31,294 bases of DNA from IMG/VR virus record IMGVR_UViG_3300044614_000737, positions 1 to 31,294 of that record; one strand, given 5' to 3'. The notes below the pieces were generated by a model. That model did no database searches, was not told the origin of the DNA, and worked only from the letters and a program-made list of their open reading frames with translations. The stretch comes from a virus. Below are positions 5,759-21,123 of the stretch, in pieces. Made by a program: the position numbers and the translations under genes. Position 1 is the stretch's first letter, and every line of letters starts with the position of its first letter.

Positions 5759-6424
5759 ATGCCTACCTCCGGCACAACAGACTTCAACCTATCGATTGAT
5801 GATTTGGTTGAAGAAGCATTTGAGCGTTGCGGCATGCGGCCGACGAGCGGCTATCAGCTCAACTCCGCACGTCGCTCGCTCAATTTGCTGTTTCTGGATT
5901 GGGCCAATCGTGGCTTGAATCTTTGGACCATTGAGCAGGCCACGTACACCCTGACTCAAGGCACCAATGAGATCGCTCTGGCGGCTGATACGGTCAATGT
6001 CTTGGAGGCGATTATTCGCCAAAACAACCAAGGCATTAACACCGATGTGTACATCGAGCGTATCAGCCGAGAAGACTGGTTGAACGTCCCTGACAAGACA
6101 ACACAAGCTCGTCCGGCACAGTTCTATGTCCAACGCACCAACATCCCTAAAGTGTTCTTCTACCCGGCGGCCGACCAGACATACACCTTTGTCTACTATC
6201 GGATTCGTCGGATTCAAGACGCTGGCGCGTACACCAATGATGCGGACATTAATTTTCGCTTCCTGCCGTGTCTTGCGTCGGGACTGGCTTACCAGTTGTC
6301 GTTGAAGTTTGCGCCGGATCGTACGGCGGCACTCAAGGCGATTTACGAAGAGGACTTCAACCGCGCCGCCATGGAAGATCGGGATACTGCCAGTGTGCAG
6401 TTCATCCCAGACATGGGGGTCTAA
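5759..6424 (+). CDS. Head-tail connector/adaptor-like virion protein
   Basis: A 221-residue protein with a helical N-terminus (IDDLVEEAFERCGMRPTSG, then ARRSLNLLFLDWANRGLNLW). A beta segment follows (TYTLTQGTNEIALAADTVNV), with a later YTFVYYRIRRIQDAG and a C-terminal helix (AALKAIYEEDFNRAAMEDRD). Helical adaptors of this sort, for example P22 gp4-like or T7 tail-tubular-A-like proteins, bind below the portal. Assignment rests on general resemblance and position before the SU10-type adaptor at 6772. It follows the previous stop by three bases. Confidence 0.65.
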   Translation: MPTSGTTDFNLSIDDLVEEAFERCGMRPTSGYQLNSARRSLNLLFLDWANRGLNLWTIEQATYTLTQGTNEIALAADTVNVLEAIIRQNNQGINTDVYIERISREDWLNVPDKTTQARPAQFYVQRTNIPKVFFYPAADQTYTFVYYRIRRIQDAGAYTNDADINFRFLPCLASGLAYQLSLKFAPDRTAALKAIYEEDFNRAAMEDRDTASVQFIPDMGV

Positions 6425-6775
6425 GTGGCCTACGCAACCGGCAAATTCTCCTACGGTCTGTGCGACTATTGTGGGCAGCGATATGCCTACAACACCCTGC
6501 GCAAGAACTGGCAGGGGTACATGGTTTGTCCGGACGACTACGAGCCGAAAGAGCCGCAGCTTGAGCCGTTGCGTTACCGTGGTGACGCGATCGCTCTGCG
6601 CGATCCGAGGCCCGATCGCATTGAACCTGTTTCCGTGTACGTTGGCGCGCCCGGCTTTACGGCTTTTCAGAGTTACGGCTCTGCTCGTAACACGAACGAT
6701 ATGCGGCCTTACATCGAGGGCCAGGCTTTGATCGCTCAAGGCGTAGTGGGGTCAGTTCTGGTGGCTACATCATGA
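6425..6775 (+). CDS. Small protein with CxxC metal-binding-like motif
   Basis: A 116-residue protein from a GTG start immediately after the preceding stop, with a GGGGG ribosome site. Cys13, Cys16 and Cys35 (GLCDYCGQRY ... MVCPDDYEP) form a zinc-ribbon-like half-site with one ligand less clear. Similar short proteins with the NWQGYMVCPDDYEPKEPQ pattern occur among phage connector genes. The remaining 75 residues are Gly/Ala/Val-rich without a known fold. It is likely a virion or assembly protein; metal binding is a prediction from Cys spacing. Confidence 0.65.
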   Translation: MAYATGKFSYGLCDYCGQRYAYNTLRKNWQGYMVCPDDYEPKEPQLEPLRYRGDAIALRDPRPDRIEPVSVYVGAPGFTAFQSYGSARNTNDMRPYIEGQALIAQGVVGSVLVATS

Positions 6776-7428
6776 CGTACGACGAATTAGTCACGAACAT
6801 TCGGAACTACACCGAGGTGAACTCTAACGTGTTCACCAATGCGGTGATCAATACGTTCATCACGATGGCGGAGAACCAGATTCTTCGCGAGATCGACCTT
6901 GACGTATTCAAGCTCGAAGCCACCGCCAACATGACATCGGGCAACAAGTTCCTGTCTGCCCCGAGTGACATCCTGACCCATCGGTACATGATGATCACGT
7001 CGAACAACAACCAGATCTTCCTGGATTTCCGTGATACGTCGTTCATGAAGGAATACTGGCCGAACGGCAACACGACTGGCGTGCCCAAGTACTACTCGGT
7101 GTGGGATCAAAACACGTTCTACATCGCGCCCACTCCAAACTTAAACTACGTGGTGGAGCTAGGCTACATCTACCGCCCGGCGCAGTTGTCGCCGGCGACC
7201 CCGACGACCTGGATCAGCACGAATGCTCCGGAAGCCCTGCTTTATTCCTGTTTGATTCAGGCCTACAGCTACACCAAGGGCCCGGACAACATGCTCCAGT
7301 ACTTCCGCAATTCGTATCGCGAAGCGATACAGGGCCTGGGCATCGAGCAGCAGGGACGCCGCCGCCGCGACGAGTACCGCGATGGTATGATTCGTATGCC
7401 GCTTAAATCGGAGTCGCCCGGTCCATGA
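6772..7428 (+). CDS. Phage adaptor protein (SU10 adaptor-like)
   Basis: A 218-residue protein matching the SU10-adaptor style: an opening helix (MTYDELVTNIRNYTEV), FITMAENQILREIDLDVFKL, a beta region with DILTHRYMMITSNNNQIFLD, FMKEYWPN, the YYSVWDQNTFYIAPTPN strand pair, and a C-terminal helix. Adaptors bind the portal and form the upper part of the short tail. It overlaps the upstream gene by four bases, suggesting coupled expression. The family is recalled, not searched. Confidence 0.75.
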   Translation: MTYDELVTNIRNYTEVNSNVFTNAVINTFITMAENQILREIDLDVFKLEATANMTSGNKFLSAPSDILTHRYMMITSNNNQIFLDFRDTSFMKEYWPNGNTTGVPKYYSVWDQNTFYIAPTPNLNYVVELGYIYRPAQLSPATPTTWISTNAPEALLYSCLIQAYSYTKGPDNMLQYFRNSYREAIQGLGIEQQGRRRRDEYRDGMIRMPLKSESPGP

Positions 7429-10132: not shown

Positions 10133-11284
10133 ATGGCTAGTACCATCAACGCCACTGGCAGCGGTGTAGTTATCACTGGCGACTCTAGTGGCGCATTAAA
10201 CCTGCAAGTTGGTGGGTCAAACGCTATTCAGATCTCTTCGGGCGGCGCGACCACGATCAGCAGCCTCAGTACCACGGGCAGCACCATTTCGTCCGGCAAC
10301 CTGGCCTTCACGGGCACAGGACAACGGATCACGGGCGACATGAGCACGACCACGTTTGTGGATCGTTTGTCGTTTCAGACAACCGTGACAAACGGAGTCA
10401 CATCAATATCGGCACTGCCAAACGGCACTGCCACCGGATCAAATGCTAATTTCTACAATAACAGTGACCCTACAAACTCCGGGTTGATGCTAGTTGGCGC
10501 GCTTTCGTCAGAAGCAATCATTAACTCAACCATTCGCGGTACTGGCTCCTACCTTCCAATGACCTTCTACACAGGGGGCAGCGAGAGGGTTCGGCTAGAT
10601 ACGTCTGGAAACCTGCTTGTCGGTACTTCCACAACTATTGGAACATCCAACGCTACCCTACAGGTTCTAAGGTCTGCTAGTAGTTCTATCACGATCGCGA
10701 CGTCAACCATTCCTGTAAATACGGCAAGTTTTGCTGGTATAGACGGCTGGGGGTTTGACGGCTCTACGTACTTTGCTGCCGGAACACTTAACTTCCGAGC
10801 TGCCGAAGGCTGGTCAACTACAAACCACGGCTCTGATATCCAATTCCGTACCACCGCCAGTGGCTCTGGAGGCGCTTTATTTGAGGTAATGCGTCTGACC
10901 TCTACCGGCGCTTTAGCCTTTAATGGCTCAACTAATTACGGCTCTTCCGGGCAGGTACTAACGTCTAACGGTAATGCGCCCCCGACTTGGCAGTTGCCGG
11001 CTGGCCTTCCGACGATGAACATTGTCAGCGGCACTACGCAGGCCGCCGTTGCCAATAACCATTATGTTTTGACGAACGCTTCGGCTACTACCGTAACCTT
11101 GCCTGCTTCTCCATCCGCCGGAGCCGTGGTATGGGTAACCGTAGCAAACGGGCGGGTAGACAACGTAATCGCTCGTAACGGGTCAAACATTAATAGTCTT
11201 GCTGAAAACATGACTATTGATAGCGCATATGCAGGCGTACAGCTTCGCTATGCTGACGCAACAAGAGGTTGGGTGTTCACATGA
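10133..11284 (+). CDS. Tail fibre protein, paralog 2
   Basis: A 383-residue fibre that aligns by eye with the 12912 protein over its first half: GGATTISSLSTTGSTISSGN, TGTGQRITGDMS, then GTGSYLPMTFYTGGSERVR. After about residue 210 it diverges. The C-terminal 110 residues (GLPTMNIVSGTTQAAVANNH, VTLPASPSAGAVVWVTVANG, ending ADATRGWVFT) look like a capping beta-domain. A receptor-binding role is inferred. It has a TAGGAG ribosome site, and its stop overlaps the ATG of the glycine-rich gene at 11281. Confidence 0.8.
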   Translation: MASTINATGSGVVITGDSSGALNLQVGGSNAIQISSGGATTISSLSTTGSTISSGNLAFTGTGQRITGDMSTTTFVDRLSFQTTVTNGVTSISALPNGTATGSNANFYNNSDPTNSGLMLVGALSSEAIINSTIRGTGSYLPMTFYTGGSERVRLDTSGNLLVGTSTTIGTSNATLQVLRSASSSITIATSTIPVNTASFAGIDGWGFDGSTYFAAGTLNFRAAEGWSTTNHGSDIQFRTTASGSGGALFEVMRLTSTGALAFNGSTNYGSSGQVLTSNGNAPPTWQLPAGLPTMNIVSGTTQAAVANNHYVLTNASATTVTLPASPSAGAVVWVTVANGRVDNVIARNGSNINSLAENMTIDSAYAGVQLRYADATRGWVFT

Positions 11285-12027
11285 GTACATTGAGTCAATT
11301 TGTAGGTGGGCCTGCCCGAGTAACCACTTACACCAGCGGTAGTGGGACATTCACGCCGCTTAGTACAACGAAGTCGTTTGCTCGCGTCACGGTAGTGGGC
11401 GGTGGCGCAAGTGGTGCTGGTGGAGCAAACGGTAGCTTCAATGGCGGCGCTGGCGGCGGTGCCGGTGCAACCAAAGAGATGTGGGTAAAGCTAACTGAAG
11501 CATCGTATTCGTACAGTGTTGGGGCAGGTGGTGCTGCTGTTGGCACTCAAATAGCTGGAAATAACGGTTCGAAGTCTGTTTTTGGCTCTATCGTTGCAAA
11601 CGGTGGGGCTGGTCCCGGTTGGTCCGGGGGAGGTACCGTTCAGGGCGGAACGGGTGGCGGCGTTACATCAGGAGACGGCGTAAGAATTGGAGCTTCTGGG
11701 GACAGTGGCGGTTGTGGTGGAGGAATCGCGTCGGCTGTAGGCCATCCCGGATTTGCTATTGGATTTCCTGCTGCTGGCAGCAGTGGCGGCACCGGCACAT
11801 CGTCAGCGGGTTCGTCCACTGGGTCAGAATCTGGTGGCGGCGGCGGTGGTGACAGCGCATACGGAAGAGGCGGAAACGGTGGCAACGCTCCCGCAGGAAA
11901 TGGGACTGCCGGAAGTGGGTATGGCTCTGGCGGCGGCGGTGGCGGTGGCAATGCTAGTGGAGCAGGGGGCAGCAGCGGCGCAGGATCTGGCGGAATCATT
12001 ATTATTGAGGAGTATCTGGAAGGATGA
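11281..12027 (+). CDS. Glycine-rich adhesin-like tail protein 1
   Basis: A 248-residue protein. Residues 1-35 form a short beta head (MSTLSQFVGGPARVTTYTSG). From about residue 40 it is extremely Gly-rich, with GGGGGG runs and GxGG spacing, closing with a short IIIIEEYLEG strand. This resembles phage glycine-rich domains and, in general architecture, T-even gp38-type adhesins built of polyglycine-II helices. The likely role is at a fibre tip binding the host surface. The ATG at 11281 is preferred because it overlaps the upstream stop; an upstream TTG in frame is less likely. Confidence 0.75.
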   Translation: MSTLSQFVGGPARVTTYTSGSGTFTPLSTTKSFARVTVVGGGASGAGGANGSFNGGAGGGAGATKEMWVKLTEASYSYSVGAGGAAVGTQIAGNNGSKSVFGSIVANGGAGPGWSGGGTVQGGTGGGVTSGDGVRIGASGDSGGCGGGIASAVGHPGFAIGFPAAGSSGGTGTSSAGSSTGSESGGGGGGDSAYGRGGNGGNAPAGNGTAGSGYGSGGGGGGGNASGAGGSSGAGSGGIIIIEEYLEG

Positions 12028-12440
12028 ACAGGTACGCACTAATTAAAAACGGCAGCGTTGATTTGATCGTTGAACAAGACGACACGCCTGTGCTGCCTGG
12101 AACTTGGGTCGAAGTAACCGGAATGAATGTAGGACCGTTAGATCTGTATGACGGGGCTACGTTTACAAAATATGTTCCGCCGTTGCTCCCGAACATCATT
12201 ACCAAGGCGGCTTTTCGGTTTCGGATGACCGACGATGAATACGTCGAAATTTTGTCCGCAGCGAAAACGGACGTTGAGGTCGCCGCATGGGTCGAAACCT
12301 TTAACATGGTTTCTACGATCAACCTCGATGATCAGCGTACGAAGAGTGGCGTTGAGAAGTTAGTTAGTAAGTCGTTACTAACAGAATCGCGCGCTAACGA
12401 GATACTGAACGATCCTGTACAACCTAACGAAATACCATAG
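12024..12440 (+). CDS. Fibre accessory protein or assembly chaperone, putative
   Basis: A 138-residue protein. Residues 1-55 form a small beta domain (MNRYALIKNGSVDLIVEQDD, a pattern seen in fibre-assembly proteins). Residues 65-138 are helical with FRFRMTDDEYVEILSAAKTD, VETFNMVSTINLDDQRTKSG and a closing ANEILNDPVQPNE. Placement directly after an adhesin gene with an ATGA overlap suggests a dedicated assembly factor or tip cap, comparable to Tfa-like proteins. Family membership is not certain. Confidence 0.6.
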   Translation: MNRYALIKNGSVDLIVEQDDTPVLPGTWVEVTGMNVGPLDLYDGATFTKYVPPLLPNIITKAAFRFRMTDDEYVEILSAAKTDVEVAAWVETFNMVSTINLDDQRTKSGVEKLVSKSLLTESRANEILNDPVQPNEIP

Positions 12441-14912: not shown

Positions 14913-15914
14913 ATGACACTTCCGGTTAATAACCTATCGATGTCCCAAGTGAACGTTGAACTTGGGTTGGCAGCGACTACGCAGATCTCGCTTAACCAAG
15001 CGAACGTGCGCACGCTTGCCGGTGTTCCGAGTGGGCAGATATCGATGAGCAATCTACTTGGCAAGTCCGCTTATAACGGGCCTCCCACCGTTGAATACCT
15101 AGTTATTGCCGGTGGCGGTGGCGGAGGATACGGTAGATACGCTTATTACGGACCCGGCGAATATGGCGTTGGAAACTCTGGTGGTGGTGGCGCAGGCGGA
15201 TACCGGACAAGTTCAACTGCGGTATCGCAGGGAACAACATACACAATAACTGTTGGCGGCGGAGGCGCTGGTGCACCCTTTTACGGCGCAGCCAGTAACG
15301 GGGGCAATTCGGCATTTGGCGGCATTGTTTCGACAGGCGGCGGAGGCGGCGGTTCTACAGATGACTTCAACTTAATATCAAACGGCGGAAGCGGCGGCTC
15401 TGGCGGTGGTAACTCTGTCGAGTGGTATATATTTAGTTACGGCATGTATAAGTGCGGCCAGACAGCGGCCGGCTTGGGAACTGCCGGCCAAGGAAACAAC
15501 GGTGGCACCGGATACGGCTGTCCGCAACAAGATGCCGGTGGAGGCGGTGGCGCAGGAGGCGCTGGCGGTGTTGCGACGGGAGGCGCACCCGCATCTTCTT
15601 CAATAACCGGAGCCTCTGTTGCCAGAGCAGGTGGTGGTGGAGCAGCGTATGGCGGCTTTGGCGGTGGCGGTGGCGCGGGTAATGCTTACCCATATAGTCC
15701 TCGTTCCGCTACAGCTAACACCGGCAGTGGTGGTGGTGGCGGCCGTGAATATAGCCCTCCAAACACAGGAAACGGGGGGTCTGGTGTTGTCATCATTCGA
15801 CATGCGGATACTTACACAACCGGAACCACTACGGGGTCCCCGTCTATAACGACGAGCGGTGGATATAAAATTTATGTGTTCAACGGATCTGGTTCTGTTG
15901 TTTGGAACTCTTGA
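14913..15914 (+). CDS. Glycine-rich adhesin-like tail protein 2
   Basis: A 333-residue protein. Residues 1-55 (NNLSMSQVNVELGLAATTQ, LAGVPSGQISMSNLLGKS) match a short N-terminal module widespread in phage surface proteins. From about residue 62 (VEYLVIAGGGGGGYG) to 295 it is Gly-rich with scattered aromatic residues. It closes with GSGVVIIRHADTYTTGTT and a small beta cap ending VVWNS. The architecture resembles glycine-rich adhesin or fibre-tip domains. It shares style with the 11281 protein but has a different N-terminus. It starts three bases after the S74 fibre. Confidence 0.75.
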   Translation: MTLPVNNLSMSQVNVELGLAATTQISLNQANVRTLAGVPSGQISMSNLLGKSAYNGPPTVEYLVIAGGGGGGYGRYAYYGPGEYGVGNSGGGGAGGYRTSSTAVSQGTTYTITVGGGGAGAPFYGAASNGGNSAFGGIVSTGGGGGGSTDDFNLISNGGSGGSGGGNSVEWYIFSYGMYKCGQTAAGLGTAGQGNNGGTGYGCPQQDAGGGGGAGGAGGVATGGAPASSSITGASVARAGGGGAAYGGFGGGGGAGNAYPYSPRSATANTGSGGGGGREYSPPNTGNGGSGVVIIRHADTYTTGTTTGSPSITTSGGYKIYVFNGSGSVVWNS

Positions 15915-15916
15915 TC

Positions 15917-16456
15917 ATGGCTCATTTTGCAAGAATTGACGAAAACAACCTTGTCGTTGACGTTGTTGCTATTAGTAACGATGCAATCGAAGAGCTTCCG
16001 TTTCCAGAGTCGGAGCCCGTCGGGGTTGCTTTTTGTAGAGCCTTGTATGGGGACAGCACTGCTTGGAAACAAACAAGCTACAACGGATCTTTCAGGAAAA
16101 ACTTCGCCGGTGCCGGGTTTAGTTACCGCCAGGACATAGATGCATTTGTTCCGCCTCGGCCAATTAGATATCCGTCATGGGTGGTAAGTCCAACAACTGC
16201 TCTTTGGGAGCCTCCTATTCCTAGGCCCCCTGATTCCGTGTATCGCTGGGACGAGTCAACTGTTTCTTGGGTAAGTGTGCCAAAACCATACCCCTCTTGG
16301 TATTTTGATCCGTCCCAGGATCCACCAACGTGGATGCCACCAAAGCCGTTTCCCCCTGATCGAATACCTTTTGGAAACAAGCGGTATGAATGGAACGAGG
16401 CTCTTCAGGAGTGGATTTACGTTCCGTCCGCAGGCGAGGGCGGGGAGGAGCCGTAA
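15917..16456 (+). CDS. Tryptophan/proline-rich tail-associated protein with duplicated module
   Basis: A 179-residue protein. Residues 1-70 follow a pattern common in marine phages: AHFARIDENNLVVDVVAISN, then WKQTSYNGSFRKNFAGAGF. The second half has two copies of a Trp/Pro module: YPSWVVSPTTALWEPPIP with YRWDESTVSWV, then YPSWYFDPSQDPPTWMPPKP with YEWNEALQEWIYV. The ATG at 15917 is chosen over an upstream in-frame TTG because it begins just after the preceding stop. Position after an adhesin suggests a tip or assembly accessory. The stop overlaps the next start (TAATG). Confidence 0.7.
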   Translation: MAHFARIDENNLVVDVVAISNDAIEELPFPESEPVGVAFCRALYGDSTAWKQTSYNGSFRKNFAGAGFSYRQDIDAFVPPRPIRYPSWVVSPTTALWEPPIPRPPDSVYRWDESTVSWVSVPKPYPSWYFDPSQDPPTWMPPKPFPPDRIPFGNKRYEWNEALQEWIYVPSAGEGGEEP

Positions 16457-17019
16457 TGCTTTTTCACAAGCCCACCAAAACAGCGTTTGTACTGCCAACC
16501 CGAACGGGAAGCACAAGCACTTGCAATTACTTGGTTGCACTCGGTTTTAAGTATGTTCCGTACTTAAATACAACAGAACCGAGAATGCATCACATGTTTC
16601 CGACCGAGGCGTTCGATGTATTTCCTAACCTAAAAGCCTACAAGCTATACGGGTTTTTCAGAAATCCACTAGATCGTTATTTAAGTATTTGCAGGATGTT
16701 CAATCGATTTGGTCAGAGGGTAACACCAGCACACATAACCGACAGCAGTGTCGCCGATAACATCCAGCTCGCTTATATCCTAAAAGCCAGGCAGGTTGAG
16801 TGGCTAGATGTCCCAAACATGACTGTTTTGGATTTTGATAATTTTTCGTCTGAGTTAAAGGCGATTGGAAGCAACTACGACGATCCGGGCCACGAGGTTA
16901 TGCACATTAATGCTGGTCGAGGGGTCGCAGAAGCTACTCCAGAAGTCATCGAGTTTGTCCGCGACTATTACGCTGCCGACTACGAGTTTGCGAAGAGGAC
17001 ACTAGGTAAGGAATACTAG
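16456..17019 (+). CDS. Sulfotransferase-like protein
   Basis: A 187-residue protein with both PAPS-binding signatures of the sulfotransferase fold. Residues 11-21 (FVLPTRTGSTS) form the 5'-phosphosulfate loop after a beta strand. Residues 63-78 (KLYGFFRNPLDRYLSI) contain the 3'-phosphate site, with Arg69 and Ser77 spaced as expected. TVLDFDNFSSEL (123-134) and a C-terminal EFVRDYYAADYEFAKR helix fit the same family. Sulfotransferases move sulfate from PAPS to a hydroxyl or amine, often on sugars. At 187 residues it is compact, and the acceptor cannot be read. It lies among fibre genes in a locally AT-richer region and may be an acquired gene. Confidence 0.75.
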   Translation: MLFHKPTKTAFVLPTRTGSTSTCNYLVALGFKYVPYLNTTEPRMHHMFPTEAFDVFPNLKAYKLYGFFRNPLDRYLSICRMFNRFGQRVTPAHITDSSVADNIQLAYILKARQVEWLDVPNMTVLDFDNFSSELKAIGSNYDDPGHEVMHINAGRGVAEATPEVIEFVRDYYAADYEFAKRTLGKEY

Positions 17020-17022
17020 CGA

Positions 17023-18114
17023 ATGCTCGGCTTTACCCCATTTGCATCGGCTCCCTTTGCATCCGCAGGGGCAGTCGACGTTGCTGTCAGCCTCACTGGG
17101 GTACAAGCTACCGGCCAGGTGGGCGCGGCTGCGGTCACAGGATCCGCAAACGTCACGCTTACTGGCGTTCAGGCAACGGGGCAAGTTGGTACCGTAGCTG
17201 TCGCTGGCGCGGCTAACGTATCGGTCACCGGAGTTTTTGCCACTGGCGAGGTCGGATCGGTCGCCGTTAACGCGTCAACCGACGTGTTTGTTACCGGTGT
17301 CTTCGGAACTGGAGAGGTCGGCACCGCTGCCGTCACCGGTACCGCGAACGTTCTTGTTACGGGGGTGTTCGGTACCGGAGAGGTCGGCACCGTCGCTGTG
17401 GCGGCGGGAGCAGAGGTCCCTGTCACCGGGCTGTCGGCTACGGGACAGGTTGGCACCGTCGTCGTTGCAGCAAACGCAGATGTTCTTGTCACCGGAGTCT
17501 TTGCAACAGGTCAGGTTGGCGTTGCAGCGGTTACGGGCGACGCCAACGTCCTTGTCACCGGCGTTGTGGCCACCGGCGAAGTTGGCTCTGTTACGGTGCT
17601 TCCGTCGGTCGAGGTCTTCGTTACCGGGGTTCAAGCCACTGGACAGGTTGGCGTTGCTGCCGTCGCCGCCAATGCGGATGTCTTCGTCACCGGGGTCTTC
17701 GCCAGTGGCGAAGTCGGCTCGGTTGTTGTTACGGCAGGCACCAACGTACTAGTTACCGGCGTATCTGCAACGGGACAGGTCGGGGCTGCTGCTGTTACAG
17801 GAACGGCGAATGTTCTTCTGACTGGGGTTCAGGCCACCGGCGAAGTCGGCACCGTCGACGTCGAAGTTGTCACCAACGTCTTCGTCACCGGGGTTTCGGC
17901 TACCGGTGCCGTGGGTGCGGTGGCCGTCGCTGCAAACGCCGACGTCTTCGTAACTGGCGTACAAGCGGTCGGACAGGTCGGACAGGTCACTGTTTGGAGT
18001 AATATTATCCCTGGCCCGACCGGCCCGTGGACCGTGGTCGATGACGCGCAGGGCGGTATTTGGACGCCCGTGGATGATTCGCAACCGAATATTTGGACGC
18101 CGATAGCGGCATAG
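17023..18114 (+). CDS. 22-residue tandem-repeat virion protein with Trp-rich tail
   Basis: A 363-residue protein. Residues 1-23 are a short lead (MLGFTPFASAPFASAG). Residues 24-324 are about fourteen consecutive 22-residue units of the form VTGVxATGQVGTVAVxxxANVx, the last partial. The tail (325-363) has WTVVDDAQGGIWTPVDDSQP and a repeated W-x-x-V/I-D-D pattern seen in other phage proteins. Regular V/T/G spacing predicts a beta-solenoid or stacked-strand rod. It sits between the sulfotransferase and an S74 fibre, so it may be a spacer rod or surface fibre. Function unknown. Confidence 0.75.
   Translation: MLGFTPFASAPFASAGAVDVAVSLTGVQATGQVGAAAVTGSANVTLTGVQATGQVGTVAVAGAANVSVTGVFATGEVGSVAVNASTDVFVTGVFGTGEVGTAAVTGTANVLVTGVFGTGEVGTVAVAAGAEVPVTGLSATGQVGTVVVAANADVLVTGVFATGQVGVAAVTGDANVLVTGVVATGEVGSVTVLPSVEVFVTGVQATGQVGVAAVAANADVFVTGVFASGEVGSVVVTAGTNVLVTGVSATGQVGAAAVTGTANVLLTGVQATGEVGTVDVEVVTNVFVTGVSATGAVGAVAVAANADVFVTGVQAVGQVGQVTVWSNIIPGPTGPWTVVDDAQGGIWTPVDDSQPNIWTPIAA
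17092..17994 (+). repeat. 66-bp protein-coding tandem repeat, about 14 units
   Basis: Every 66 bases the coding sequence repeats a 22-codon unit, thirteen full copies plus a partial last one. Invariant positions are the TGV and the Gly-Gln/Glu-Val-Gly core. Variable positions cluster at the residue after TGV (Gln, Phe, Ser, Val), at Gln/Glu before Val-Gly, and at the last residues of each unit. DNA identity between neighbours is far from complete, so the array is not a recent slippage product. Confidence 0.85.
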
Positions 18115-18125
18115 AGGATCGAGAA

Positions 18126-20153
18126 ATGCCTAGTAGTTACAGCACAAACCTTGGCCTGGAGCTCATGGTGACGGGCGAGAAGTCCGACACTTGGGGCGAC
18201 ATTACCAATAGTAACCTCGGAACGCTGCTGGAGCAGGCCGTATCGGGCTACGTCACGCAGGCGGTTGCCACGGGAACGGACACGACGATCACCATCCCGG
18301 ATGGTTCGACTGGCGTTGCTCGAAACATGTACATCGAGCTCACGGGCACGGGCGGTGCGGCCACAAACCTGATTGTTCCGGCCAAGAGAAAGCTGTACTT
18401 CATCTACAACAACACCGCTTCTGGGCAGGTCACCGTCAAGGTGTCGGGCCAGACGGGTGTTTCTGTGGCCAATGGCAAGAAAGTCATTCTGGTCTGTGAC
18501 GGCACGGACGTGGAGCTTGCGACGAGCTATCCCACGACGCCGGTTGCGGTGACAGACGGCGGTACAGGCGTCACGACGAGCACCGGTACGGGCAACGTCG
18601 TTCTCTCGACTTCGCCGACACTGACAACGCCGAATCTAGGCACGCCGTCGGCTTTGACGCTCACGAACGCGACGGGGCTGCCTCTTACTACGGGTGTCAC
18701 CGGTACACTGCCGGTAGCCAATGGCGGCACGGGAGTTACGAGCAGCACCGGATCAGGAAGCGTGGTGCTTTCTACGTCTCCCGCGCTCACGACTCCGAAC
18801 CTCGGCACTCCGTCTGCGGCGACTCTGACGAACGCCACTGGATTGCCGTTGACCACGGGCGTGACGGGCACGCTACCTGTTGCCAATGGTGGTACTGGCG
18901 TTACGAGCAGCACTGGTTCTGGCAGCGTGGTGCTTTCCACGTCCCCTGCTTTGACGACTCCAAATCTCGGCACGCCGTCTGCGGCAACGCTGACCAATGC
19001 GACGGGCTTGCCGCTCTCGACGGGCGTCACCGGAACGTTGGCCGTGACCAACGGCGGTACGGGCCAAACGAGCTATACCAACGGTCAGTTGCTGATCGGT
19101 AACACGACCGGCAATACGCTGAACAAGGCGACGTTGACCGCAGGCACAGGCATCACTATTACCAATGGCGCTGGCTCAATCACGATCTCCGCCGCTGGCA
19201 CTGGAGATGTTGCGGGTCCCGGCTCGGCAACGGATAACGCTATTGCTCGTTTTGACGGAACAACTGGAAAGCTTATTCAAAACTCCGGCGTCACCATCAC
19301 CGATGGCGGCGTGTTAACGACGACCGCTAACGTTTCAGTCAATGGCGTTACGATCGGCAAGGGAACAGGCACCGGCACAAGCAACCTCGCTATCGGCGCG
19401 ACCGCTGGCGACAGCATGACGACCGGCAGGCAGAACACTTTTGTCGGTGTCGACGCAGGTACCGCTGTTACTAGCGGAGAAGACAATACGTTTGTTGGTT
19501 ATGGCGCTGGTGATCAGGCGTCATCCTCTAGCGACAACACTTGTCTTGGCAAATGGGCTGGAATTCAGATCAGCACTGGAAGTTTTAATACGGCTATTGG
19601 ATCCGGGGCATATGCGGGAGGCGGCGCATACAACAACTCCACGTGCATCGGATATAGCTCGCAGATCACCGGAGGTGATCAGCTTCAGTTAGGCAACTCG
19701 TCAGTAACGACCTACGTATATGGGTCAGTGCAGGATCGCTCGGACGCACGAGACAAGACGGACATCCAAGACACGGATCTTGGGTTGAACTTTGTCCTTG
19801 CTCTTCGTCCCCGTAAATTTAGATGGGACATGCGCGAGGATTACCGCACTCCGCGTCCGCCGCCGGATGCTCCGAAGGACGTCCTTGATGCGTGGATCGA
19901 GGCCAATAAGTTTAGCAACCTGCAGCATGACGGCACGCACAAGCGTAATCGTTTCCACCAGGGCCTGGTTGCGCAAGAAGTCAAAGCTACGATGGACGCG
20001 ATGGGCATCGACTTTGGCGGCTATCAGGATCACAAGGTCAAGGGCGGAGAGGATGTCTTGTCGCTGGGCTATGAAGAGATGATTGCCCCGTTGATCAAGG
20101 CTATCCAAGAGCTCAAGGCCGAGTTCGATGAGTACAAGAGGACGCACCCATGA
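18126..20153 (+). CDS. Tail fibre with S74 chaperone domain and 55-residue repeats
   Basis: A 675-residue fibre. The N-terminal 140 residues (MPSSYSTNLGLELMVTGEKS, DTWGDITNSNLGTLLEQAVS, then a beta domain) form a domain widespread at the start of phage fibres. Residues 145-309 are three 55-residue repeats (GGTGVTSSTGSGSVVLSTSP ...). A beta-helical stretch follows, with GxNTFVGxxAG-type units. The C-terminal 137 residues are an S74 self-cleaving chaperone beginning SDARDK, with Ser539 and Lys544 as the catalytic pair. The ATG at 18126 has a GAGGATCGAG site and is preferred over an upstream in-frame ATG that would overlap the previous gene. Confidence 0.85.
   Translation: MPSSYSTNLGLELMVTGEKSDTWGDITNSNLGTLLEQAVSGYVTQAVATGTDTTITIPDGSTGVARNMYIELTGTGGAATNLIVPAKRKLYFIYNNTASGQVTVKVSGQTGVSVANGKKVILVCDGTDVELATSYPTTPVAVTDGGTGVTTSTGTGNVVLSTSPTLTTPNLGTPSALTLTNATGLPLTTGVTGTLPVANGGTGVTSSTGSGSVVLSTSPALTTPNLGTPSAATLTNATGLPLTTGVTGTLPVANGGTGVTSSTGSGSVVLSTSPALTTPNLGTPSAATLTNATGLPLSTGVTGTLAVTNGGTGQTSYTNGQLLIGNTTGNTLNKATLTAGTGITITNGAGSITISAAGTGDVAGPGSATDNAIARFDGTTGKLIQNSGVTITDGGVLTTTANVSVNGVTIGKGTGTGTSNLAIGATAGDSMTTGRQNTFVGVDAGTAVTSGEDNTFVGYGAGDQASSSSDNTCLGKWAGIQISTGSFNTAIGSGAYAGGGAYNNSTCIGYSSQITGGDQLQLGNSSVTTYVYGSVQDRSDARDKTDIQDTDLGLNFVLALRPRKFRWDMREDYRTPRPPPDAPKDVLDAWIEANKFSNLQHDGTHKRNRFHQGLVAQEVKATMDAMGIDFGGYQDHKVKGGEDVLSLGYEEMIAPLIKAIQELKAEFDEYKRTHP
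18558..19052 (+). repeat. Three 165-bp in-frame repeats in the S74 fibre
   Basis: Units at 18558-18722, 18723-18887 and 18888-19052 each encode 55 residues from GGTGV to the next GGTG. Units 2 and 3 are identical over their first 43 residues, yet by hand count 24 of those 43 codons differ synonymously. The fourth GGTGQT marks the exit from the array. The pattern suggests old duplication under protein-level constraint. Confidence 0.85.
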
Positions 20154-20635
20154 TGACAATGGTCAGTACTTTCCTGTCCTTCCTCGCAGGCGGACTGCCA
20201 AAGATCCTTCAGATCTTCCAAGATCGGCAGGACAAGAAGCATGAGTTGGCCCTTGTGGCAGCGCAAAAGGAGCGTGAGCTCGCTTTGGCCGAGCGGGGCT
20301 TTCTCGCGCAGGCGCGCGTGGAGGAGATCAAGCTAGAGCAGATCCAAACGCAGACCGCAGCCGAAGAGCGTGTGGCGCTGTACCAGCACGACATGGAGAT
20401 CGGCAAAGGCGCAAGCCAGTGGATGATCAACCTGCGCGCTTCGGTGCGTCCGGTTGTGACTTACATCTTTGTTCTGGAACTGGTCGCTATCAACATCGCC
20501 GGAGTCTGGTACGCCTATAACACGGGCGTACCGTTTGCGGCTGCCATGGCGGAGGTGTTCTCTGAGGACGAGATGCTGATCCTGTCCTCGATCATCGCCT
20601 TCTGGTTTGGAACGCAGGCATTCGGTAAGAAGTGA
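20150..20635 (+). CDS. Three-TM-type holin
   Basis: A 161-residue protein with a hydrophobic N-terminal helix (MVSTFLSFLAGGLPKILQIF), a long charged coiled coil (about 24-82), and the SVRPVVTYIFVLELVAINIA segment typical of the three-TM holins linked to gene-transfer-agent release (GTA_holin_3TM type). A second membrane helix (about 141-156) and a KK terminus follow. Holins open the inner membrane at a set time so the endolysin can reach peptidoglycan. It overlaps the S74 fibre stop and is followed directly by the lysozyme gene, supporting the call. Confidence 0.75.
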   Translation: MMTMVSTFLSFLAGGLPKILQIFQDRQDKKHELALVAAQKERELALAERGFLAQARVEEIKLEQIQTQTAAEERVALYQHDMEIGKGASQWMINLRASVRPVVTYIFVLELVAINIAGVWYAYNTGVPFAAAMAEVFSEDEMLILSSIIAFWFGTQAFGKK

Positions 20636-21123
20636 AAGTCTCCAAGGCCGCCATTGAGATGATCAAACATCATGAGGGCGTCAGAACGCGCCCTTATCGG
20701 TGTCCGGCCTTGTTGTGGACCGTGGGCGTTGGACATGTCATCGAGCCGACTCACACTGCGGTGAAGTATGAGGAACGTCGCCATTTACCGATACCCGCAG
20801 GGTGGGATCGCACTCTCACGATGGACGAGGTGGACCGGATACTTGCTGAAGACCTTCGTCGGTTTGAGCGTGGCGTGGTTCGACTTTGCCCTGCTGCTGT
20901 TGGCCGTCAAGGAATCTTCGATAGTCTCGTTAGTTTTGCCTTCAACGTGGGCCTCGGCAATCTCCAACGCTCTTCCCTTCGGATGAAGACGAACCGAGGT
21001 GATCTCGAAGAGGCCGCTGATGAGTTTTTGAAATGGACCAAGGCTGGTGGTCGTGTGCTACCTGGGTTGGTCAAACGGCGCAATGATGAGCGCGCCATGT
21101 ACCTATCAGGAGTGCATCAATGA
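20632..21123 (+). CDS. Endolysin, GH24 lysozyme
   Basis: A 163-residue muramidase of the T4/P22 lysozyme family. The catalytic triad has the standard spacing: Glu15 in HHEG, Cys24 eight residues on, and Thr30 after five more (E-8-C-5-T), followed by VGVGH. Cys in the middle position is a known variant. FDSLVSFAFNVGLGNLQRSS and the closing GLVKRRNDERAMYLSG complete the family pattern. It cuts peptidoglycan at lysis. No signal peptide or membrane anchor is present, so export depends on the holin. GTG start overlapping the holin stop by four bases. Confidence 0.9.
   Translation: MKVSKAAIEMIKHHEGVRTRPYRCPALLWTVGVGHVIEPTHTAVKYEERRHLPIPAGWDRTLTMDEVDRILAEDLRRFERGVVRLCPAAVGRQGIFDSLVSFAFNVGLGNLQRSSLRMKTNRGDLEEAADEFLKWTKAGGRVLPGLVKRRNDERAMYLSGVHQ

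Follow-up and report, generated by a model that had tools for sequence, protein, structure and literature searches.

A predicted sulfotransferase gene coupled to a tail-adhesin module in a phage genome fragment

The product encoded at positions 16456–17019 of the window, the whole 31,294-nucleotide stretch of viral DNA analyzed here (IMG/VR record IMGVR_UViG_3300044614_000737), is, with high probability, a sulfotransferase of the Sulfotransfer_2 kind that depends on PAPS, its catalytic activity being predicted from motifs and fold. In all likelihood the enzyme belongs to a tail-adhesin module. Enzymes of this class are known and phage sulfotransferases are in print as annotations; the tail-adhesin setting is the new part. 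Our best reading, which we hold tentatively and at somewhat less than an even chance, is that this enzyme of an exchangeable module sulfates the tail tip, perhaps on tyrosine.

Sequence motifs and family conservation

The gene (plus strand) is a 187-codon open reading frame in which T15-R-T-G-S-T-S21, Arg69 and Ser77 lie where the original prediction had placed its PAPS-binding signatures. The ORF listing opens the same frame earlier, at 16390 (209 amino acids); position 16456 was taken as the start because it is common to the relatives. The family set comprises 34 non-identical proteins, the window protein included, collected from scans of uncultivated viral contigs. Identical copies and L186, a truncated copy of L244, were left out, and near copies such as L023/L217 and L154/L183 remain within the 34.

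Residues 15–21 (TRTGSTS, 16498–16518, plus strand) form the predicted PAPS 5′-phosphosulfate-binding loop, a motif of established role. Position 16 is Lys in 29 and Arg in five of the 34 sequences, the window protein being among the Arg carriers; Gly18 is present in 33/34, and position 19 is Ser or Thr throughout. The predicted 3′-phosphate-binding segment, Arg69–Ser77 (RNPLDRYLS, 16660–16686, plus strand), has the Arg and Ser eight residues apart that characterize this feature. Arg69, Pro71 and Ser77 are invariant in 34/34, and the proposed search for loss of the Arg/Ser residues in homologs thus found none. Gln113 and Asp175 are likewise present in 34/34 and Asn152 in 33/34. His46 (16591–16593, plus strand), which is His in 33 sequences and Tyr in one, is a candidate catalytic base, presumably by analogy with heparan-sulfate 2-O-sulfotransferase (2-OST), whose His spacing we take to resemble that conserved in the window family.

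Conservation along the chain is uneven. The mean entropy is 2.3–2.5 bits in residues 31–57, 81–110 and 132–165, compared with 1.3 in residues 58–80, and the three variable segments are where acceptor binding would presumably be expected. The C-terminal tail, residues 166–187 (16951–17016, plus strand), is unusually conserved, with a mean entropy of 1.31 bits and, over 16 sequences, an amino-acid identity of 0.80 vs 0.48 for residues 1–30, 0.36 for residues 31–165 and 0.61 for residues 60–77. Its sequence is FVRDYYAADYxFAKxxLGKEY, and its conservation, which exceeds that of most other parts of the enzyme, is seen chiefly in the amino acids. The tail was considered as a recombination junction and this was rejected: synonymous change is frequent (codon identity given the same residue is 0.55, vs 0.42–0.50 elsewhere), and the constraint is therefore mostly on the amino acids. 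A block common to the window, L003 and L004, apparently of recent origin, runs into the next gene.

Profile searches gave a divided result. The PHROGs family phrog_3347 (“Galactose-3-O-sulfotransferase”) matched residues 8–80 only, with an E value of 1.9e-5 (25.7 bits) and no curated cut-off for this collection. The window protein had no Pfam match even at E 10 and no NCBIfam match at E 0.01, and the PF03567 (Sulfotransfer_2) profile matched nowhere in the window. The PF03567 cut-off of 22 bits is exceeded by two relatives, L182 at 26.0 and L186 at 28.7 bits, and further relatives give weak matches; because the window protein itself has none, the link to PF03567 runs via the relatives only. 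A sequence search of the Protein Data Bank (PDB) returned nothing notable, the sulfotransferase 3rnl appearing only at E 0.85. Searches of the phage records with the window protein, L182 and L020 brought up no relative, and the genome contigs scanned yielded none either.

Predicted fold and known sulfotransferases

An AlphaFold2 model calculated from 18 sequences had a pLDDT of 89.9 and a pTM of 0.87; an earlier structure prediction from four sequences (pLDDT 54) was not used. Foldseek ranked the bacterial sulfotransferase 3rnl first (E 8.5e-4, the sole PDB match at or below 0.001), followed by 3-O-sulfotransferases and NDST. In a second look with VIA-align 2 the best 50 PDB matches listed were all sulfotransferases (Z 8.0–11.8), headed by human NDST1 with a Z score of 11.8 and RMSD of 3.8 over 182 aligned positions. 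The absence of TPST among these best 50 PDB fold matches listed rules nothing out. The fold check thus agrees with the phrog_3347 match and the conserved motifs, and the predicted sulfotransferase identity stands.

The heparan-sulfate sulfotransferases (NDST1, 9f6z/1nst; 3-OST; 2-OST, 4ndz; 6-OST, 5t05) share the fold over residues 5–187 with Z scores of 8.9–11.8, and they also have the PAPS loop and the Arg/Ser segment. The window protein differs from them in its length of only 187 residues, in sequence (10–17% identity) and in its hypervariable middle, and it is known from sequence and model. Within phages, the 205-residue “Galactose-3-O-sulfotransferase” of Synechococcus phage ACG-2014f, whose phrog_3347 membership was taken from its name, matches relative L004 at E 8e-3 and gives a fold match at E 6.9e-5. 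Its gene lies ~1.8 kb upstream of a tail-fiber gene, inside a glycosyltransferase/epimerase cluster, whereas the window gene has no such cluster around it and is coupled to a tail accessory gene.

That carbohydrate sulfotransferases are the best-ranked solved folds, and that the ACG-2014f protein is encoded among glycosyltransferase genes, favors a glycan acceptor. Late in infection the enzyme might sulfate a glycan of the host surface, or the precursor of one, and thereby keep progeny from re-adsorbing to debris or make the cell resist superinfection; the block to superinfection is a role that the original prediction had raised. The enzyme would then travel with the adhesin module since it has to be specific for the receptor that the adhesin binds. 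The location of the presumed acceptor side in the enzyme's variable part suits this explanation. The window offers it less support, as the sulfotransferase gene stands among structural genes and none of the 41 listed window genes matched a glycosyltransferase in Pfam and PHROGs scans, the window being a fragment and most matches being to unknown families. We regard receptor sulfation as a substantial possibility that falls short of likely.

A description of phage-encoded sulfotransferases as rare is too strong, since papers on phages and viral contigs report them and seven of the nine fold matches with E ≤0.001 in BFVD are so named; gp5.1 of Roseobacter phage SIO1 is also one of the nine. In the excerpts available, which demonstrate no role for any of them, sulfotransferases are counted among auxiliary metabolic genes (PMC12285232, PMC8290583, PMC10829341), one is named among replication genes (PMC13299392), and a paper on OM43 phages states that sulfotransferase function in phage genomes remains unclear (PMC10580990). 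An excerpt of PMC10829341 also mentions, citing another source, sulfotransferase-based nucleotide modification in phages. Among the excerpts of open-licence papers searched, none described a sulfotransferase in combination with a tail-adhesin module.

The upstream tail-adhesin module

The sulfotransferase gene lies in the tail-fiber region directly behind a small tail-accessory gene, MAHFA (phrog_7759, 15917–16456, plus strand; E 4.3e-42 over residues 1–121). MAHFA ends in ...EEP-stop and overlaps the sulfotransferase start by TAATG; this location and coupling, described in the original prediction, are present in the sequence. Before MAHFA lies the gene of a glycine-rich, putatively adhesin-like tail protein (PF21722, 14913–15914, plus strand; E 2.6e-13), whose first inter-glycine loop, YGRYAYYGPGEYGVGNS (15129–15179, plus strand), is tyrosine-rich.

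The proposed search for the same gene next to fiber genes elsewhere found it beside tail genes in other phages. In every one of the 33 testable members, a glycine-rich gene lies upstream of the sulfotransferase at a distance of at most four genes (L009 was scored on L012, as the two encode the same protein, and L182 is cut off too soon). Directly before the sulfotransferase, 27 of the 34 members have MAHFA, a call made from truncated ends for L009 and L182; six have a different small family and one has the glycine-rich gene itself. A one-base overlap with the preceding gene occurs in 26/34 members, as TAATG in 24 and TAGTG in two, the overlap of L166 being counted from the printed sequence. 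Nine loci, among them L217, which nearly duplicates L023, were found after the pattern had been noticed; all nine have the glycine-rich gene upstream and eight have MAHFA directly upstream. Where the ORF in front of MAHFA encodes 100 amino acids or more (76 loci), it is glycine-rich in 50. As the pair is common without the enzyme, the synteny shows the enzyme's place and not that those genes require it. Since its relatives accompany the same tail-tip genes, the enzyme probably modifies either the host-recognition apparatus or the host receptor that it binds.

Positions 11269–12440 contain another glycine-rich gene (PF21722) and, behind it, a small accessory gene of the family that replaces MAHFA in L048 and L154. 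The window therefore contains two pairs of glycine-rich and accessory genes, only one of them with an enzyme.

The gene preceding the sulfotransferase ends in a Pro codon at the stop in 32/34 members, the junction in the window lying at 16451–16458. For MAHFA this ending is found in 26/27 genes before a sulfotransferase vs 10/97 others; it occurs in 8/34 of the other MAHFA genes that overlap a next start and in 5/134 TAATG-overlapping pairs without a sulfotransferase. It may reflect slow termination that helps re-initiation, or a C-terminal docking tail. The view that the ending spans three unrelated upstream families was abandoned, as the 131- and 151-residue partners are one family. Because this family ends in Pro without a sulfotransferase in 9/13 cases, the Pro-stop remains only a MAHFA-level association.

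Downstream genes and the rest of the window

A repeat protein (VTGVxATGxVG repeats, 17023–18114, plus strand) begins 3 bases past the sulfotransferase stop. The statement that the sulfotransferase is followed directly by a repeat protein is correct for the window; it does not extend to the relatives, in which the downstream gene is, depending on the phage, a repeat protein, the gene before the endolysin, a DUF7936-like gene, a MADTKIS-type protein or another. Because of this variation the repeat protein is a neighbor and not the enzyme's conserved partner, and the earlier suggestion of the repeat rod as a substrate finds no support, the glycine-rich and accessory genes upstream being the ones kept.

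Beyond the variable tail region lies a conserved pair (20150–21123, plus strand), consisting of a phrog_6637 gene at 20150–20635, for which “holin-like” is a guess, and an endolysin at 20632–21123 (PF00959). Relatives of the endolysin occur in at least 595 stretches; the best 80 are 86–99% identical, with mosaic adjoining tail genes. Elsewhere in the window, positions 552–1019 encode a phage GroES-like co-chaperonin (phrog_3188, E 3.1e-17), and 5759–6424 and 6772–7428 both match the SU10 adaptor family PF24175, a possible duplication.

Exchange and covariation

The mean identity between sulfotransferase loci is 0.90 for the endolysin, 0.95 for the gene before the endolysin and 0.40 for the sulfotransferase. 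In 116 pairs with endolysins at least 0.85 identical, the sulfotransferases have a mean identity of 0.39 (range 0.27–0.97). When 80 loci were drawn by the endolysin, with copies kept in, 42 of the 80 had at least 5 kb upstream and 14 of these 42 bear a sulfotransferase, which is therefore an optional part of the exchanged tail region.

These data bear on the proposal that the enzyme acts on a small molecule or on nucleotides, or has decayed, and is linked to the tail genes by chance. The Arg in place of the loop Lys in 5/34 proteins, that of the window included, and the nucleotide modification mentioned for phages would be consistent with it. Lys or Arg at position 16, Arg69 and Ser77 are nevertheless invariant across divergent copies, the reading frame is kept open at a mean identity of 0.40, and the gene holds a fixed position behind the module while the gene downstream varies, all of which make such an auxiliary or inactive enzyme quite improbable.

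Over 16–17 loci, the sulfotransferase distances correlate with those of MAHFA (Mantel r 0.52, p 0.0005) and, over 17 loci, with those of the glycine-rich protein (r 0.45, p 0.0005); the correlations with the endolysin (r 0.06, p 0.22) and with the gene before the endolysin (r −0.01, p 0.53; 16–17 loci) are close to zero. With 24 loci the values are 0.49 for MAHFA and 0.35 for the glycine-rich protein. Thinning at 65% identity to 17 loci leaves the MAHFA link in place (r 0.30, p 0.024). The covariation with the glycine-rich protein, which an enzyme–substrate pair might show, is lost on this thinning (r −0.19, p 0.93) and was discarded; its loss speaks against sulfation of the tail. Joint exchange of adjacent genes could come from linkage alone, and sulfation of the receptor would lead one to expect covariation with the tail module equally.

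The sulfation target, or a docking subunit, could also be MAHFA and not the glycine-rich adhesin. MAHFA is the closest partner, directly upstream in most members, its covariation with the enzyme runs deepest, and its Pro-stop is concentrated before the sulfotransferase. We consider this improbable: seven members follow either the other small accessory family or the glycine-rich gene, MAHFA is widespread without a sulfotransferase, and the Pro ending recurs both in the other accessory family without the enzyme and in those other MAHFA genes that overlap a next start.

2OG-Fe(II) oxygenases in the same neighborhood

Ten enzyme-like ORFs adjoining MAHFA elsewhere, chosen by eye, all matched PF13759 or PF13640 above cut-off. 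2OG-Fe(II) oxygenases of these two Pfam families were seen beside MAHFA or the sulfotransferase in L139, L143, L168, L198, L067, L098, L118, L240, L243 and L244. They resemble the sulfotransferase in occupying the same neighborhood, beside the glycine-rich and MAHFA genes, and differ from it in their chemistry. In a set of 111 distinct MAHFA loci, a 2OG oxygenase was located no more than 4 kb away in 39, a sulfotransferase was present in 20, and two had both. In this first set the enzymes appeared to avoid one another (an oxygenase at 2/20 sulfotransferase loci vs 37/91 others, p 0.009), but three of nine held-out loci have both (L240, L243 and L244, where the adjacent oxygenase was confirmed as PF13759), and mutual exclusion is therefore not claimed. 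The two enzymes can co-occur and are neighbors in kind, not strict alternatives.

Tyrosine content of the glycine-rich partner

Tyrosine makes up 5.0% of the glycine-rich proteins that precede a sulfotransferase (n = 19), compared with 2.8% of those with a 2OG oxygenase (n = 33) and 3.6% of those with neither (n = 69). Fourteen residues were compared in this set; relative to the last group, Tyr is enriched (p 0.0002) and Thr depleted (p 0.001). Within the same phage group only, the Tyr difference is weaker (12 vs 18 proteins, p 0.04). In held-out loci, from which L217 was dropped beforehand as a near copy of L023, the Tyr content was 4.94% (n = 8) vs 3.36% (n = 102), with a one-sided p of 0.002. 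The base set for this test had been chosen by means of a profile that was itself seeded from sulfotransferase loci. The test was repeated without L246, which at 189 residues falls under the base-set limit of 200, and gave 4.36% (n = 7) vs 3.36% (one-sided p 0.006); restriction to proteins of 250–420 residues gave 4.67% (n = 6) vs 3.81% (n = 60), with a p of 0.007. All these p values are optimistic because the loci share ancestry and so are not independent.

In the first set, the first inter-glycine loop has at least three tyrosines in 12/17 vs 1/53 proteins, one L024 loop being overlong as cut by the script. As a general mark the tyrosine-rich first loop was not retained: it was found in 1/4 held-out cases (p 0.14), with no clear replication, whereas the overall Tyr content did replicate. 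The tyrosine enrichment of the partner is not predicted by receptor sulfation. The lower Thr content beside the enzyme and the frequency of the glycine-rich and MAHFA pair without it count against sulfation of the tail.

Discussion

Sulfation of the tail tip would proceed as follows. The sulfotransferase would be made by translational coupling with the tail gene, late in infection and in the cytosol, as the modifying enzyme of an exchangeable module that also supplies a glycine-rich adhesin and a small accessory protein. Most likely it would take sulfate from host PAPS and attach it, ahead of assembly, to a tail-tip protein encoded in the module, the favored acceptors being tyrosines in exposed loops of the glycine-rich adhesin, and the modification would tune receptor binding and thereby adsorption.

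Two described systems make parts of this scheme plausible. In the gp38 adhesin of T2-type phages, according to an excerpt of PMC12892980, glycine-rich motifs flank variable loops, and these loops serve receptor binding, which makes the tyrosines in the partner's loops plausible acceptors. The glycine-rich partner differs from gp38 in matching PF21722, and the likeness is one of description, not of sequence comparison. RaxST of Xanthomonas provides a bacterial precedent in which enzyme and target come from one gene cluster: the available excerpts tie it to tyrosine sulfation of a peptide of that cluster (PMC6637879, PMC4216712). RaxST is not a phage protein, and here too the likeness is by description and not by sequence comparison.

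With respect to the acceptor, a virion protein is a tentative choice, just under an even chance, and tyrosine as the modified residue is possible and on balance doubtful. Between the virion and the receptor as the target of sulfate, the evidence gives a modest lean to the virion; receptor sulfation fits nearly as well. A still broader proposal is that the tail-tip adhesin is sulfated post-translationally, probably on loop tyrosines, by the enzyme of its own module, and that sulfotransferases and 2OG-Fe(II) oxygenases form a pool of adhesin modifiers that change receptor-binding chemistry without a change of adhesin sequence. We put this forward as a speculation that is more doubtful than its parts.

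The enzyme's fixed place in a tail-adhesin module makes the question a direct one: does the sulfate end up on the receptor or on the tail? In the latter case an enzyme and the host's PAPS supply could help to set the host range, beyond the adhesin sequence, and this would matter for the prediction of host range from genomes.
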